Shown: positions 1,434 to 55,660 of the stretch, one piece after another
How the letters are laid out: each line of letters begins with the position of its first letter
How positions within the stretch are numbered: position 1 is the first letter of the stretch
Assembly: GCA_021413825.1 (NCBI GenBank)
Contig: JAIOPQ010000001.1
Location: forward strand, 24,319 to 88,318
DNA: 64,000 nt
DNA from: Spirochaetia bacterium
GTDB lineage: Bacteria; Spirochaetota; Leptospiria; Leptospirales; Leptonemataceae
Direction of reading: 5' to 3'
Translations under genes and position numbers: made by a program
Notes under the pieces: generated by a model
The model's database searches: none
Told to the model about the DNA's origin: nothing
Seen by the model: only the letters and a program-made list of their open reading frames with translations

Positions 1434-3453
1434 AATACCCTCCTTCTGCAGAACCCGTCATTCCCTGATGTGCCACGTCCACTCTTAGCTCAATATAACG
1501 ATCAGCAAGATCTGCCGTAAGGTTTGAATGATAGGTAAGAATATAGCGTTCATCACGTCTGGCTCGGATCTTGGGATATAGATCCCGAATGGCTGTATCA
1601 TCGTAGGCCCTGATGTATTCCCCTCCCGTAGCTGTTGCAAGGGACTTGTATGTTTCAGTAACGTCAGGCGACTGCCCCATCTCAAAGGAGATCACATAGA
1701 TTGGAATCCCTTGCGCCCGGGCAAAAAATTCAATTCTTTCCGATGGATATTGATGAAACGGATGCCGCTCAGCTCCTGAAACAAGAACAATCACAGCACG
1801 CGGTCCCATGGCTGTGACAAGCCTGGAAAGGCTTTCAACAATGCCCTTACCCACATCTGGCCTATCTATAACTTCACCCTCTGTAATTGATCTGATAATC
1901 TCACGCCGCTGTAAGCCCTCATAGACTGAGCGCACCGTTTCCCCCGCCCGAATGACGGCAATTCGATCTGAAATTCTAATTGGCGCCAGGATCTTGCCAA
2001 GTAGCGAGCTCAGGATTTCCTTTTGTTCCGGCTCCGCAAGAGTAGCATCGCTTTCTTTGACGAACATCAGGTTTACGCGGCTCTGATAGTTATCCATACT
2101 ATCCGTGCTTGTCCCACGGATGAAGCGATCGTTTTCAAAGATCCTAATTTCATTTCTAGTCAGCCCAGGCATCTGCGATCCAAGACGATTTCGCATCTGA
2201 ACGAAGATAGCAATGTCCGGAAATGAACTGGTATCCACACGCTCCACGCGACAGTCAAGGTTGCTGATTCGCAATGCTTCCGGCATAAACACATGAATGC
2301 GCCCGGATCCAAATTCTGAAACATACAACACACCATTGGAATCCGTGCGCGCTGAAAATGGCCTGGTCCAGCTCAGGGGTTGATCGTCTTTGGTGCGAAC
2401 TTCCAGTTTATTCCAGCTCTTTTCCACCAGATCGTAGAATAGGACGCCCGCTTCTTCGTCTGCGACGATTAGCCGCCTATCAGCAAATGAAACACCGCGC
2501 GGTTTAGACATTAGATTGGACTCGATCTGGTCCTGGTAATTTCCATCTTCATCAAAAACAAGAATGCGCGATGAGTTACGATCTGCAATATAGAGCAACC
2601 CTTGATCGAGTGCAACACCAGCTGGAAAGGTAAGACCAGCATCTTCAGCGAGGAATGTTAAGAGATATTTCCCGGTTAGATCAAATTTCTGAACGCGTTT
2701 GTTTCCACTATCAGTTACAAAAATTGCATTTGAACTCACAACCACACCGGCTGGTCCGCGAAATTGTCCGGGGCCGCTACCGGTTCCCCCAAATGACAGC
2801 AGTTCGGAGCCGTCCAGATCCATGATGCGAATTCTATCGTCGCTGTAGTCTGCAATATATACTTTATCGCCGACTAACGTCAGTCCAACGGGACCCTTAA
2901 AGCGATCGAATAACCTTCCCCGAATCTGACGAAACGCCGTTGTGCCGGGGTTTGATACAATTAGATTGGCACTTCCGGAAAACAGAAAATACAGATTGCC
3001 CTGTGAATCCACGGCACTATCAACCGGACGCTCTGCGCTCATCTCCGGAAAATCCAGTTTTCCAAACGAGCGGTAGTGAATGTAAGGACCAACGTTCTTA
3101 AATCCATTCAGCTTGAAGCGAAGTAAATCGCTGCGCATCCGAATCAGTGGATAAGAACCCTCTGAAACTCGATCGAGAAACTCCCATTGTTCAAGTGCGC
3201 TATTCCATTCACCTGAATAATAGTTGGCATCTCCCAGGTATCTGCGCGCCAAATGAAAATACGAAACCTTGTTCAGGGATTTGTAAAAGAACTCGCGGGC
3301 TGCAGCATATTGACCTGCATTATAAAACGTGATTCCTTTTCTAAATGAGTCGCGTGCTTCCTCTTCTTTGATTCTTAGAGACGGCAAATTCTGGGAAAAT
3401 GCCGGGGAAAACAACAGAAAGGCAATGCACAGATACTGCACTTTAGGAGACAT
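1411..3453 (-). CDS. Exported TPR / NHL-type beta-propeller / VWA-like protein
   Basis: ORF 1411..3573. Likely start at MSPKVQYLCIAFLLFSPAFSQ (signal peptide). TPR-like FRKGITFYNAGQYAAAREFF, repeated NHL-like blades, C-terminal VWA-like segment (RAVIVLVSGAE...IPIYVISFEMG). Confidence 0.7.
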   Translation of the reverse strand: MSPKVQYLCIAFLLFSPAFSQNLPSLRIKEEEARDSFRKGITFYNAGQYAAAREFFYKSLNKVSYFHLARRYLGDANYYSGEWNSALEQWEFLDRVSEGSYPLIRMRSDLLRFKLNGFKNVGPYIHYRSFGKLDFPEMSAERPVDSAVDSQGNLYFLFSGSANLIVSNPGTTAFRQIRGRLFDRFKGPVGLTLVGDKVYIADYSDDRIRIMDLDGSELLSFGGTGSGPGQFRGPAGVVVSSNAIFVTDSGNKRVQKFDLTGKYLLTFLAEDAGLTFPAGVALDQGLLYIADRNSSRILVFDEDGNYQDQIESNLMSKPRGVSFADRRLIVADEEAGVLFYDLVEKSWNKLEVRTKDDQPLSWTRPFSARTDSNGVLYVSEFGSGRIHVFMPEALRISNLDCRVERVDTSSFPDIAIFVQMRNRLGSQMPGLTRNEIRIFENDRFIRGTSTDSMDNYQSRVNLMFVKESDATLAEPEQKEILSSLLGKILAPIRISDRIAVIRAGETVRSVYEGLQRREIIRSITEGEVIDRPDVGKGIVESLSRLVTAMGPRAVIVLVSGAERHPFHQYPSERIEFFARAQGIPIYVISFEMGQSPDVTETYKSLATATGGEYIRAYDDTAIRDLYPKIRARRDERYILTYHSNLTADLADRYIELRVDVAHQGMTGSAEGGYFVPSRAE

Positions 3454-47312: not shown

Positions 47313-48905
47313 TTAAATTACGCGCTTGTACTGGGAAAGGTCCTGGTTCCAGACGGGAACACCACAGAACTTATCACCTTCTGGACAGAATGGACGAACG
47401 CCCGCCTCTTTTCTGATTCTACAGGGAGCATGGACCCAGCGTCCAATGGCAGGATGCACATCGCGTACCTGCGAGAGCTCGTCTACGGACGCCTGGAATA
47501 TTTCTTCCTGGGCATTATAGCACGTGCGAATCTTCCATTTATGATGCAGATTCAGCAAATCACCTGATTCAAAGAATCGGATTGGAAATGCATTGGGCAG
47601 CAGATAAACAGCCTCTTCTTCGCTACCGCCAGCATCAAGGAATCGATTGATCTTCTCAAAAAGCACGTTCATCGCGGCCTGATACTTTTCAAACGATGCT
47701 GCATGCTCGCGAATCAGGGCCGGGGTTACATAGTCAGGATGTCCCGTAAAATGCTTCATGAGCATGGGCCTTGCACCGGGAACAAGGCGATGCCTCTGGT
47801 CCTGCGAATCAGCAGTATGTGAGATTTTCTTTTGAAAGGTATAGTGAACGTTCAGTAGACTACGCGAAATGCGCGAAAGGGTGGTCTCGTTCAGGGCACT
47901 GGACAGGTGAGAATTGCGCGCGGGATTCAGGACAAGATCAACTGCAACCTCATCTGAAAGCATTTCACGCGTTGCACCCAGCACTGCGCGAACCGAAGAT
48001 GCAAGCACCTCGACTGCATTGCTCTCAAATGAAACAAGGCGCGACGTTCTCCTGCCAAGATCCTGATCAAACTCGCGAATGAAATTCCTGGATGCCACCT
48101 CTGGATTTGGATCAAAGAACTCTTTAAAGAAACGATATTCCGTTGTGTCTTCCAAGGGAATTGAATCCGGAATCTCAGCTGCAAACAATGGGTCAGCTGC
48201 AATTGCGGCTTCCATCATGCTTTCAACCAGGTTTCTTGCTTCCTCTGGAACATCGCAGGCCAGACAGAGCCTTCTATAGCGATGGAGCGTCAGTCCGTTG
48301 ATTGTATGATAAAAATACGTGTGCATTCCAACCGGAAGAATGTAACGCGCAGCCTCCATGGACTTCTTATGCGTTGTCTTTTTCCATGTTTCATGCTTTG
48401 TTTTTCTGGCAGGAAATATTTTATAAAACTCGGCTTCGGCAGGTGCATCCAGGTCACCTAGAAGTTCGCGGTAGACTCCTACAGAATACGTAACTGCATC
48501 CAGATAAAAGCCAAGTTCACGTTCGCGACCAGCGGCTCTGAGCGACGATGGAACATAGAATCGATCTGACTTAACTTCAACGTAGCGCTGACTTACCTGC
48601 TCTGAATTATAAAACGGATGTGAATGCAGAAAACTCCAGACCAGGTGACGGCTTACATTATCGATTGCAAAGACAAAGTGAACATGCTGGCGAGTAGTCA
48701 GATGACCGGCCTGCAAAGTTGATTTTGCAATACGATCGCGAATGGCTCGCGCCTCTGGTGTGCGCGAAACATCCTCCGGAGAAATAATTCCTTTGCCCGA
48801 ATAGCACGTGCGCGCCGTAGCGATGCTCAAATCAAAAGGTACGTCAGTTACGTCGACGAGTTTGACAGCAGGAGCGCTTCCTGGAAGTGTATCCATGACT
48901 GGCAT
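47313..48905 (-). CDS. Two-domain ThyX-like FAD-dependent thymidylate synthase family protein
   Basis: SRHLVWSFLHSHPFYNSEQVSQRYVEV in the N-terminal half; SHTADSQDQRHRLVPGARP and LHHKWKIRTCYNAQEEI in the C-terminal half. Confidence 0.75.
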   Translation of the reverse strand: MPVMDTLPGSAPAVKLVDVTDVPFDLSIATARTCYSGKGIISPEDVSRTPEARAIRDRIAKSTLQAGHLTTRQHVHFVFAIDNVSRHLVWSFLHSHPFYNSEQVSQRYVEVKSDRFYVPSSLRAAGRERELGFYLDAVTYSVGVYRELLGDLDAPAEAEFYKIFPARKTKHETWKKTTHKKSMEAARYILPVGMHTYFYHTINGLTLHRYRRLCLACDVPEEARNLVESMMEAAIAADPLFAAEIPDSIPLEDTTEYRFFKEFFDPNPEVASRNFIREFDQDLGRRTSRLVSFESNAVEVLASSVRAVLGATREMLSDEVAVDLVLNPARNSHLSSALNETTLSRISRSLLNVHYTFQKKISHTADSQDQRHRLVPGARPMLMKHFTGHPDYVTPALIREHAASFEKYQAAMNVLFEKINRFLDAGGSEEEAVYLLPNAFPIRFFESGDLLNLHHKWKIRTCYNAQEEIFQASVDELSQVRDVHPAIGRWVHAPCRIRKEAGVRPFCPEGDKFCGVPVWNQDLSQYKRVI

Positions 48906-51684: not shown

Positions 51685-53910
51685 ATGGTAATGCCGCCTA
51701 ACGTTCCATCCATTTCACTTTGCCTGAATTCTCTTTTACATGATTTACGCAATGTTATTAAATACCAGGGCGCCAGACTCAGTTCTAAAAACCGGTTGCC
51801 CCTGGCACTCTTTTTGGACCTTATGGGTCTGAGGAATCGAATGGGAATCAAGCAGGGTTGGAAAGCAAAAGCAGCGGCAAACGTTCTGCGCGGAATCAAG
51901 AAGGCAGTGAGCAATGCCGGCCCTCTGAGTAAGAATTTCCGCGCCATGCGCGAGGCTCGCGCCGTTCCCTCCGCTGCCAGGCCAACTCCAATAGCATCTC
52001 GGGGCGGAAAATACATCCCAGAACAAATCGCCATTGAACCCCTGGAAAACGAAAGCCTGGATGTCTGGGGTTTTAAGGATACAAGTTTTATTATCAACGA
52101 ACGGGGCAACGTGGAGCTATCTGGAACACGTTATGAACTGAGCGGCCAGGATCTGCCACGTTTACTGCCCTGGATCAATCGCACGCTTGGGCATACAATC
52201 GACGGGAAAGACATCAAGACCTCGCATTATCCAACCTTCATCGCAGAACCATTGTTAAACGCTGGCTTCATGAACGAAATTCGGACAGCGCTCGCGGAAG
52301 ACCAGGTTGTATTGGATGGCCCAATTCGCCTCCGCCATGGCCACGGACATACGCAGGAAGAAATGTACCTAATCAAGTACGGAAAGATGTTACGAATTCC
52401 TGATGCCGTACTGTTTCCCACGGAAGAATCGCACGTAACTAGAATCGTCGAGGCTGCACAAAGACACAACGTTTGCATTATTCCATTCGGCGGCGGCACA
52501 AACGTAACCGACGCCCTGCGCTGCCCGGAAAATGAAACACGCATGATCGTGTCTGTGGATATGCGCAAGATGAACCGTGTGCTCTGGATTGATCCTGTCA
52601 ATCGTATGGCATGCATTGAAGCCGGTGCCGTGGGCCGCCATATTACTGAATCCCTTTCAAAGCATGGATTTACCATGGGCCATGAGCCTGACAGCATGGA
52701 ATTCTCCACTCTGGGCGGCTGGATAGCCACACATGCAAGTGGAATGAAGAAAAATAAGTACGGGAATATTGAAGGAATCGTACTGGATGTTCGAGTGGTA
52801 ACGACGTCTGGAATCCTTTCGCGGCCGTCCGCACTACCTCGCGAGTCTATCGGCATCGATCCCAGGCTCTGGTTGCTGGGTTCTGAGGGAAGCCTTGGAA
52901 TCGTTACATCAGCAATTGTAAAACTCTTCCCACTTCCCCCGGAACGCCATTATGGCTCGGTTGTGTTCTCTGAATTTGAACACGGCGTAGAATTCATGTA
53001 TGAGCTGGCACAGCAAAGCACACGCCCGGCAAGCGTACGCCTTATGGATAATGTTCAGTTTCAACTGGGCCAGGCGTTGAAGCCCGCTGCAGAGGAAACC
53101 CAATGGGAAATTAGAAAAGCCAAGTTACAGAAATTCTTTGTTACAACCGTGAAAGGATTCGATCCGGATCGAATGGTTGCATGTACACTCGTGTTCGAAG
53201 GCACTCAAGAGGAAGTGGCGGCTCAGGAGCAAATGGTTTACTCCATTGCAAGAAAGCATGCCGGGTTAAAGGGTGGGTCGGAAAACGGACAGCGAGGATA
53301 TCAGCTAACGTTTGGGATTGCCTATATTCGCGATTTCATGATGAATCATCATCTGATTGCAGAATCATTTGAAACATCAGTCCCGTGGACCAACGTTGTA
53401 AAACTCTGTGCAAACGTTAAACGGCGTATCAATGAAGAACACGCAAAAAGAAACCTCCCAGGTCGTCCTGTCGTCACATGCCGCGTTACCCAGATTTACG
53501 ATACTGGTGCCTGCATTTACTTCTATTTTGCATTTTATGCAAAGGGAGTAAACGATCCATCCGAAGTCTTCAAGGAAATCGAACATGCGGCCCGCGAGGA
53601 AATTCTAAACTCAGGCGGATCTTTATCGCATCATCACGGCATCGGCAAGCATCGCCGGGATTTTATTCCTGAAATCATGTCTGATGCAATGGTAGAATGG
53701 AAACGTTTGCAAAAAACCGCTCTCGATCCCATGAATATCTTTGGTTCCCGAAACGGTCTTCCTGATATAGAACCATCATCCGCTTCGCGTTCTGTTGAAA
53801 CATTTTCGCCCAATCCAGTCACATCTGCTGCTGGATCCCATTCTCCTGGAATCTGGGCCAGATTTGTCCTTTTCATTAAGCGGATTTTTAGCAAGCGAGG
53901 TAACGCATGA
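51685..53910 (+). CDS. FAD-binding oxidase, alkyldihydroxyacetonephosphate synthase (AGPS)-like
   Basis: VWGFKDTSFIINERGNVELSGTRYELSG; GHEPDSMEFSTLGGWIATHASGMKKNKYGNIEG; DTGACIYFYFAFYAKG; AAREEILNSGGSLSHHHGIGKHRRDF. True start may be downstream of 51685. Confidence 0.88.
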   Translation: MVMPPNVPSISLCLNSLLHDLRNVIKYQGARLSSKNRLPLALFLDLMGLRNRMGIKQGWKAKAAANVLRGIKKAVSNAGPLSKNFRAMREARAVPSAARPTPIASRGGKYIPEQIAIEPLENESLDVWGFKDTSFIINERGNVELSGTRYELSGQDLPRLLPWINRTLGHTIDGKDIKTSHYPTFIAEPLLNAGFMNEIRTALAEDQVVLDGPIRLRHGHGHTQEEMYLIKYGKMLRIPDAVLFPTEESHVTRIVEAAQRHNVCIIPFGGGTNVTDALRCPENETRMIVSVDMRKMNRVLWIDPVNRMACIEAGAVGRHITESLSKHGFTMGHEPDSMEFSTLGGWIATHASGMKKNKYGNIEGIVLDVRVVTTSGILSRPSALPRESIGIDPRLWLLGSEGSLGIVTSAIVKLFPLPPERHYGSVVFSEFEHGVEFMYELAQQSTRPASVRLMDNVQFQLGQALKPAAEETQWEIRKAKLQKFFVTTVKGFDPDRMVACTLVFEGTQEEVAAQEQMVYSIARKHAGLKGGSENGQRGYQLTFGIAYIRDFMMNHHLIAESFETSVPWTNVVKLCANVKRRINEEHAKRNLPGRPVVTCRVTQIYDTGACIYFYFAFYAKGVNDPSEVFKEIEHAAREEILNSGGSLSHHHGIGKHRRDFIPEIMSDAMVEWKRLQKTALDPMNIFGSRNGLPDIEPSSASRSVETFSPNPVTSAAGSHSPGIWARFVLFIKRIFSKRGNA

Positions 53911-54701
53911 GATTCTTTTACAAGGACAAAACATTTGTTGTGACCGGCGCAAGCTCCGGGATTGGTCGCGAACTGACAAGTCTGCTGATTTCAATGGGCG
54001 CAAAGGTAATCGCTGTGGCCAGATCGCAGGATAAGCTTGAATCACTTAAAGAGGACGTAGATTCCTCCAATCTGATAATTATGACAGGCGACGTAACCAT
54101 TGAAGCAGACTGCAAGAAAGCAATCGACCTGTGCCTGCCAAACTTTGGAAAGCTGGATGGGATTATTCACAATGCAGGGGTTAGTATGCGCGCAACCGCA
54201 GAAGAAGCGGATATGAAAGTGTATGAATCCTTGATGGCCATTAACTTCTATTCAATGGTTTACCTCTATAAGAACGGAATTCAGTTACTCAGGCAATCCC
54301 AGGGGCACCTGGTTGGCGTTTCAAGCATGATGGGGCTTTTCTCCACGCATTTACGCTCGGCGTATTGCGCAAGCAAGCATGCATTGCATGGATATCTCGA
54401 TAGCATCCGCCTTGAAAACATGGAATCAGGTGTCCATGTCATGACCGTAGTTCCGGGATTTGTCAAAACTAATATCACCAAGAACGCACTCACAGCCAAC
54501 GGAAGCGTTCGCGGCGAAGACAGCACAAATACGGAAGGTGGACTGGAGCCGGAAGAAGTAGCAATGAGTATCCTTGAAGGCCTCGTGAAACGCAAGCGCG
54601 ATGTAATCGCCTCCAGACCAAAGGAAAAAGTCGGATTATTCCTCAGCAAGTGGGCGCCTAACGTTCTGGACAAGATTCTTTCAAGTTCGCATGTAACCTG
54701 A
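53907..54701 (+). CDS. Short-chain dehydrogenase/reductase, DHRS7B-like
   Basis: VVTGASSGIGRELTSLLISMGAKVIAVARS; SAYCASKHALHGYLDSIRLENM; VVPGFVKTNITKNALTANGSVRG. ATGA overlap with the AGPS-like gene. Confidence 0.88.
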   Translation: MRFFYKDKTFVVTGASSGIGRELTSLLISMGAKVIAVARSQDKLESLKEDVDSSNLIIMTGDVTIEADCKKAIDLCLPNFGKLDGIIHNAGVSMRATAEEADMKVYESLMAINFYSMVYLYKNGIQLLRQSQGHLVGVSSMMGLFSTHLRSAYCASKHALHGYLDSIRLENMESGVHVMTVVPGFVKTNITKNALTANGSVRGEDSTNTEGGLEPEEVAMSILEGLVKRKRDVIASRPKEKVGLFLSKWAPNVLDKILSSSHVT

Positions 54702-54820: not shown

Positions 54821-55660
54821 CTAACGTCCGTATTTCTTGATAAACTTGAATATTTCTTCGTATACTTTGAGGCGGCTGGTTTCGTTTAGAATTTCGTGGT
54901 AGAGGCCCGGGTATGGTACCCAGAATTTCTTTTCAGACCCAATATCTTCGTAGAAGCGACGAGAGGCGTCAATGTTTACAATTCTATCGGCCATACCCTG
55001 GAGCACGATTGCCGGGAGCTTGATGAGCGGGGCTCGCGAGAGCGCGCGCGAATGCGCGAGGGTTACTTCAGAAAACCAACCACTCGTTGCAGTCTTGAAT
55101 ACTGTGGGATCGTTTGCGTAGAGCTGCGCAATCTTCTGATCGTGTGTGAGTAAATTCGAATCAATTCCAGTTGGAATTGAAAGTGTGGGAGCAATGCGGG
55201 CGACAAAATTCCCCATATTACGCTTCCAGTTTGGAAAGTCCGGAGGCAGTCCCAGGAATGGCGCACTAAAGACGGCGCATTTCAGTTTGATGGGAGATGG
55301 ATTTTCCTCAAGGAAGCGAGCGGCTATGAGCCCACCATGTGAATGGCTGCCCAATGTGGTTGGCAACTTTGAAAAATTCTGCCTGGCCCAATGCAAGAAT
55401 GTAGAACAATCGAGCGAATACTCGGAGAAATCGCTTACATGGCCCCGTCGACCCTCTGAATCTCCATGGCCGCGAACGTCGATGGCTGCAAACGCAACGC
55501 GCTCCTCATTCATCCATTTGGCAAAATGTGCGTATCGGCGGCGATGCTCGGCAAATCCATGAATCCACAGCAGCAACTGTTTGGGTCGTTTGGGCTCCCA
55601 GATTGTTCCTGTGAGCTTCAGCCCATCCTGAGCCTTGATATGAATTGTAGTTTCCGCCAT
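54821..55660 (-). CDS. Alpha/beta hydrolase, monoacylglycerol lipase-like
   Basis: LLLWIHGFAEHRRRYAHFAKWMNEERVAFAAIDVRGHGDSEGRRGHVSDFSEYSLD; LGSHSHGGLIAARFLEE. Confidence 0.88.
   Translation of the reverse strand: MAETTIHIKAQDGLKLTGTIWEPKRPKQLLLWIHGFAEHRRRYAHFAKWMNEERVAFAAIDVRGHGDSEGRRGHVSDFSEYSLDCSTFLHWARQNFSKLPTTLGSHSHGGLIAARFLEENPSPIKLKCAVFSAPFLGLPPDFPNWKRNMGNFVARIAPTLSIPTGIDSNLLTHDQKIAQLYANDPTVFKTATSGWFSEVTLAHSRALSRAPLIKLPAIVLQGMADRIVNIDASRRFYEDIGSEKKFWVPYPGLYHEILNETSRLKVYEEIFKFIKKYGR

Follow-up and report, generated by a model that had tools for sequence, protein, structure and literature searches.

An alkylglycerone-phosphate synthase coupled to a putative DHRS7B-type reductase in a Leptospirales bacterium, and a predicted aerobic DHAP-based route to ether lipids

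The window, a stretch of 64,000 nucleotides from the genome (4.49 Mb in 134 contigs, here termed G000) of a Leptospirales bacterium, carries two adjoining genes that an earlier note had likened to alkylglycerone-phosphate synthase (AGPS) and to the mammalian reductase DHRS7B/PexRAP, which raises the question of whether a bacterium might make 1-alkyl-glycerol-3-phosphate by a route of the peroxisomal type. Judged from sequence and gene order, it is highly probable that the two genes act one after the other in an aerobic, DHAP-based pathway to alkyl ethers and plasmalogens.

The mechanically called open reading frame (ORF) of the first gene covers positions 51685-53910 of the plus strand (741 aa), and its limits, like the motifs quoted from it and from the following gene, were confirmed. 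In a sister species (G001; JAEUSB01, 'Leptospirales bacterium MAG-292') three stop codons occur in the stretch that matches the first approximately 26 codons of this ORF, while the first ATG common to both genomes is codon 53, at 51841. The 741-aa reading thus appears over-extended and the protein probably measures about 689 aa (51841..53910, plus strand), the first 52 called codons (51685-51840) probably being non-coding. Guinea-pig AGPS (4bby) was the best match in a phmmer search of the PDB, at 597 bits (E 3e-178), with 586 residues aligned at 47% identity, followed by Dictyostelium AGPS at 296 bits, whereas the next family, that of the nearest oxidase relative, reached 84 bits. Equivalents of the catalytic residues are present as R452, R549 and Y612, together with HHH649-651 (741-aa numbering); the former three align with R419, R515 and Y578 of the guinea-pig enzyme and with R352, R447 and Y508 of the Dictyostelium enzyme (the chain numbering of the latter row being offset by 3 at all three), for which mutagenesis has indicated an important role (PMC3509576). 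These three residues and the HHH motif are invariant in 80/80 true AGPS rows. The likeness to AGPS is therefore borne out by the scores, the identity and the catalytic residues, and the product of the 51685-53910 ORF is, on these sequence criteria, a true AGPS (EC 2.5.1.26). The predicted folds of this protein and of the neighbouring reductase are already fixed by sequence identity. An amphipathic C-terminal anchor was considered for AGPS and is not claimed, as the hydrophobic moment of 0.49 is unexceptional against a maximum of 0.64 within the protein.

In a maximum-likelihood tree the window's AGPS grouped with those of G001 and of G008, which represents another genus of the family. The three belong to a large clade of bacterial proteins in which guinea-pig AGPS is also found (SH-aLRT 100); this clade of 80 rows leaves out Dictyostelium AGPS and the AGPS-like paralogues, about 30% identical, of other Leptospiria. 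Neither the PDB scores nor the tree placed the protein among the D-lactate/glycolate oxidases, the outcome that the earlier note had named as contrary to its proposal. The description 'eukaryote-like' is misleading, given the position of the gene within this large clade of bacterial AGPS; as bacterial AGPS is widespread, the term does not imply derivation from a eukaryote. Bacteria outside the genus reach up to 65% identity to the window's AGPS, compared with 47% for the guinea pig, and a recent transfer from an animal is ruled out by the nesting of the gene among about 80 bacterial AGPS. True AGPS was found in three of 48 Leptospiria genomes (G001, G008 and the window's own), for which reason horizontal transfer across phyla into Leptospirales was considered; it is not claimed, since a single clade of spirochaete AGPS is not rejected by the AU test (p 0.755). 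The guinea-pig protein is placed among bacterial rows, on a long branch, and from one guinea-pig and one Dictyostelium row on such branches no direction between animals and bacteria is claimed. The family of AGPS-like paralogues at about 30% identity is common in Leptospiria (L012-L038) and keeps the three catalytic residues, which are thus necessary and not sufficient for AGPS. This family probably accounts for the AGPS annotations in Leptospira; being so distant and on a separate branch, the L. interrogans type of 'AGPS' was not merged with the true family.

The AGPS gene and the following gene, which encodes a short-chain dehydrogenase/reductase (SDR), share an ATGA stop/start overlap at 53907..53910 (plus strand), suggestive of translational coupling. 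Gene order and overlap are kept in G001 (locus L058), where AGPS ends at 3095 and the SDR starts at 3092. The proteins of the two species are about 90% (AGPS) and about 92% (SDR) identical, with pS 0.76 and pN 0.068 for the former and pS 0.71 and pN 0.040 for the latter; synonymous sites are near saturation, and the strong excess of synonymous changes indicates that both genes are under strong constraint. In G008 the two are fused into one uninterrupted ORF of 1016 aa (L059:9392-12442), which is strong evidence that AGPS and SDR act on one route. Directly upstream of this fusion lies a 1028-aa ORF that combines a fatty-acyl reductase (FAR; PF07993, PF03015) with an acyltransferase (AT; PF01553), with a LarA-like ORF and a HAD phosphatase further upstream. 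No second AGPS-SDR fusion was seen in about 80 other AGPS loci. Among the 69 bacterial AGPS loci for which 1.5 kb or more of downstream sequence was available, the next gene on the same strand was a FAR in 37 and an SDR in 18, and a FAR, an SDR or an acyltransferase in 57. The functional coupling of AGPS and SDR, as proposed from their overlap, accordingly held in the overlapping ORFs of G000 and G001 and in the fusion of G008. The convergent gene next door, which resembles monoacylglycerol lipase (54821-55660, minus strand), is present as described and also adjoins the pair in G001; it lies beside AGPS in these two genomes and at no other AGPS locus examined, on which ground it was set aside as a member of the module. 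This lipase is probably unrelated to the ether-lipid pair.

The SDR itself (53907..54701, plus strand, 264 aa) appears to be DHRS7B/PexRAP-like and is the predicted alkyl-DHAP reductase, as indicated by Pfam, NCBIfam and the fusion in G008. It matches Pfam adh_short (E 2e-46) and carries the glycine-rich NADP motif TGASSGIG at 13-20 and a catalytic triad S140-Y153-K157. Its best NCBIfam model is PRK06181 (241.5 bits, cut-off 215), which is also passed by the fused SDR of G008 (228) and by AGPS-adjacent SDRs of Poribacteria (290), Latescibacterota (292 and 298) and Marinimicrobia (219), while three other SDRs of the window's genome (200, 185 and 146) and an acidobacterial AGPS-neighbour SDR (141) fall below the cut-off. 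Membership of the model is not confined to ether-lipid loci, since a 48% identical paralogue located away from AGPS in the same genome also passes it (247). An approximate sequence of human DHRS7B, which serves here as a lead only, likewise has PRK06181 as its best model (221.5 bits), and its best matches among 39 SDRs are mostly AGPS-linked, DHRS7 and 11beta-HSD lying outside this comparison. DHRS7B has been described as an alkylglycerone phosphate reductase (PMC13200781; PMC7827237). The assignment as a DHRS7B-like SDR is thus tentatively supported by PRK06181 and by the fusion to AGPS in G008, and the latter, together with the failure of the three other SDRs of the genome to pass the model, speaks against a generic SDR.

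The genome search proposed in the earlier note, for a DHAP acyltransferase and a fatty acyl-CoA reductase, yielded a candidate FAR and a candidate acyltransferase, the latter PlsC-like and not of the GNPAT type. In G000 the FAR gene is cut off by the end of contig C112, and the acyltransferase ORF enters from the end of contig C117; these contigs have no overlapping sequence in common. In G001 the FAR and AT halves form one intact ORF of 958 aa with the same flanking genes. Comparisons with the PDB and NCBIfam placed the acyltransferase domain closest to PlsC/AGPAT and did not assign it to the GNPAT/PlsB type, so that a role of the AT half as DHAP acyltransferase is possible and is unsupported by its family, making the source of acyl-DHAP the weakest step of the scheme. 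Two further relatives, G002 and G013, contain FAR-AT and CarF without a true AGPS; either these assemblies are incomplete, or the paralogue at about 30% identity does the job.

A homologue of the plasmanyl desaturase CarF/PEDS1 is encoded on contig C32 of G000 (PF10520, E 1e-50). Its identity to M. xanthus CarF is 39%, and of the 12 histidines of the latter it has 10, the two missing ones occupying variable columns. The nine histidines essential in CarF, one of which is confined to the animal, myxobacterial and Leptospira proteins (PMC9131029), are probably among these ten, as judged from conservation and not from residue numbers. The protein scores below the equivalog cut-off of NF045946 (189 versus 500 bits, E 9e-56); it is a CarF homologue, and the same function would be expected of it. 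CarF was detected in 14 of 30 AGPS-bearing genomes and in none of 14 control genomes, as well as in 13 of 41 relatives, most of which had no AGPS. These absences, and the FAR-AT genes of G002 and G013 without true AGPS, indicate that the ether-lipid modules are not strictly linked. The CarF of L. interrogans complements an M. xanthus carF mutant (PMC9131029).

With regard to enzyme activities, acyltransferase substrate and final lipid, the pathway that we infer would begin with the FAR half, converting a fatty acyl thioester to a fatty alcohol, while the AT half (probably) or another acyltransferase would convert DHAP to 1-acyl-DHAP. AGPS would then form 1-alkyl-DHAP from 1-acyl-DHAP and the fatty alcohol, exchanging the acyl chain via a flavin adduct, and the SDR would reduce this product with NADPH to 1-alkyl-glycerol-3-phosphate. 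Ordinary phospholipid enzymes would provide sn-2 acylation and the head group, whereupon the CarF/PEDS1-type desaturase would convert the completed alkyl lipid to a plasmalogen in an oxygen-dependent step. The suggestion that the pair could make 1-alkyl-glycerol-3-phosphate by a peroxisome-type route is therefore supported by the AGPS-SDR fusion, by the catalytic residues and by the FAR, AT and CarF candidates in the genome.

Several other readings of these genes were weighed against this pathway. The FAD_binding_4 and FAD-oxidase_C domains that Pfam recognises in the AGPS ORF are common to the lactate/glycolate/2-hydroxyglutarate dehydrogenase family, and GlcD is among the weak NCBIfam matches, so that the protein might be a diverged member of that family whose redox function has nothing to do with ether lipids, situated beside a generic SDR. 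This is extremely improbable: the GlcD model reaches 156 bits against a cut-off of 568, and the reading is contradicted by the gap between the AGPS and oxidase scores, by the well-supported AGPS clade that joins the protein with guinea-pig AGPS, and by the neighbours seen in 57/69 AGPS loci. The AGPS could alternatively be an ether-lipid synthase whose partner SDR acts chiefly on acyl-DHAP, yielding lysophosphatidic acid (or on 3-ketoacyl substrates), the pair thus serving ester phospholipids as much as ether lipids. Mammalian DHRS7B reduces acyl- and alkyl-DHAP alike (PMC7827237; PMC13200781) and the PRK06181 paralogue located away from AGPS shows that the subfamily is not confined to ether lipids, but it is the SDR of the AGPS locus that is fused in G008 and overlapping in G000 and G001, and we consider this reading improbable.

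Compatible with the proposed roles of AGPS and SDR, and somewhat less improbable, is the idea that the alkyl ethers go into something other than plasmalogens, for instance alkyl-diacylglycerol for storage or a membrane core of an unusual kind, with CarF acting elsewhere. M. xanthus makes the alkyl-diacylglycerol TG-1 besides plasmalogen (PMC9131029), and CarF is unlinked to the AGPS locus and occurs in relatives that lack AGPS; the complementation by L. interrogans CarF and the conserved histidines of the C32 homologue argue in the other direction, and we regard this outcome as unlikely. Against the plasmalogen pathway as the best explanation count the loose linkage of the modules among relatives, the score of the CarF homologue below the equivalog cut-off, the PlsC-like nature of the acyltransferase, and the finding that the ether lipids of M. 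xanthus were little affected when its AGPS gene was disrupted (PMC9131029).

Compared with the animal peroxisomal pathway (FAR1, GNPAT, AGPS, DHRS7B/PexRAP, then TMEM189/PEDS1), the window's genome resembles it in an AGPS 47% identical and with the catalytic residues, in an SDR that passes the curated model also passed by the approximate DHRS7B sequence, and in its FAR and PEDS1/CarF homologues. It differs in that there is no peroxisome, AGPS and SDR form one operon (one protein in G008), and FAR is joined to a PlsC-like acyltransferase in one protein. The operon MXAN_1676-1675-1674 of M. xanthus, encoding AGPS, a FAR-GNPAT-like protein and an NAD-dependent epimerase/dehydratase, is likewise accompanied by CarF and shows similar parts (AGPS 55% identical, L163; a FAR-acyltransferase protein); here, in contrast, AGPS is paired with a classical SDR of the DHRS7B/PRK06181 type and FAR-AT occupies a separate locus in G000. 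L. interrogans, of the same class, has the same kind of CarF and an annotated AGPS and no FAR1 (PMC9131029), whereas the window's genome adds a true AGPS, FAR-AT and the predicted reductase, Leptospiria outside G000, G001 and G008 possessing at most the AGPS-like paralogue. The anaerobic PlsA/PlsR and Ger route leads to the same product class but reduces finished diacyl lipids, without DHAP, by proteins unrelated to those described here (PMC9702350, PMC11868695).

Bacterial AGPS is already known, from M. xanthus (MXAN_1676, with its FAR-GNPAT-like neighbour) alongside CarF in Leptospira (PMC9131029) and from many Black Sea MAGs (PMC11868695). A 2022 review left open the source of the ether bond in CarF bacteria and called the myxobacterial steps from fatty acid to alkyl ether unknown (PMC9131029). 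In the literature searched, of which coverage was partial, we found neither a DHRS7B-type SDR as the partner of a bacterial AGPS, nor an AGPS-SDR fusion, nor, in a spirochaete, a predicted aerobic route to plasmalogens that is nearly complete, which is not to say that they have never been reported; nor did that literature assign the bacterial alkyl-DHAP reductase step. The partner reductase, the natural fusion and the near-complete predicted spirochaete pathway are thus apparently new. The fusion points to the DHRS7B-type SDR as the bacterial alkyl-DHAP reductase, and a spirochaete is described in which each step has a candidate gene, a demonstrated DHAP acyltransferase excepted, such that this little-known relative of Leptospira can probably make plasmalogens much as animals do. 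Such genes could serve as a compact set for producing plasmalogens in E. coli, and as bacterial models for the enzymes behind the human disease RCDP. More speculatively, and less probably than not, the animal 'peroxisomal' route (FAR, AGPS, DHRS7B-type reductase, PEDS1) may be a bacterial invention, linked or fused in bacteria and inherited by animals from bacteria of this kind, in which a fused AGPS-reductase would channel alkyl-DHAP directly.

A number of further genes were observed at these loci and elsewhere. Rieske ferredoxin and HAD phosphatase genes lie directly upstream of FAR-AT (L053:16520-17568, C112) and are kept in G001 and G002. A HAD protein (ElbB) is likewise among the products of the M. 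xanthus elb operon. In G002, G013 and G008 the HAD phosphatase is separated from FAR-AT by a LarA-like gene (lactate racemase N-domain; L081:3875-5560, L082:10842-12533, L059:4720-6351), which is absent from G000 and G001 and has a 55% identical homologue in M. xanthus (L182); it is possibly an unrecognised ether-lipid gene. Elsewhere in G000, contig C14 encodes a 748-aa protein (L007:121-2367) with glycerol-3-phosphate dehydrogenase C-terminal and acyltransferase domains, an apparent fusion of a glycerol-3-phosphate dehydrogenase with an acyltransferase. Within the window, positions 47313-48905 (minus strand) encode a 530-aa protein that contains two Thy1/ThyX stretches and is about twice the usual length.
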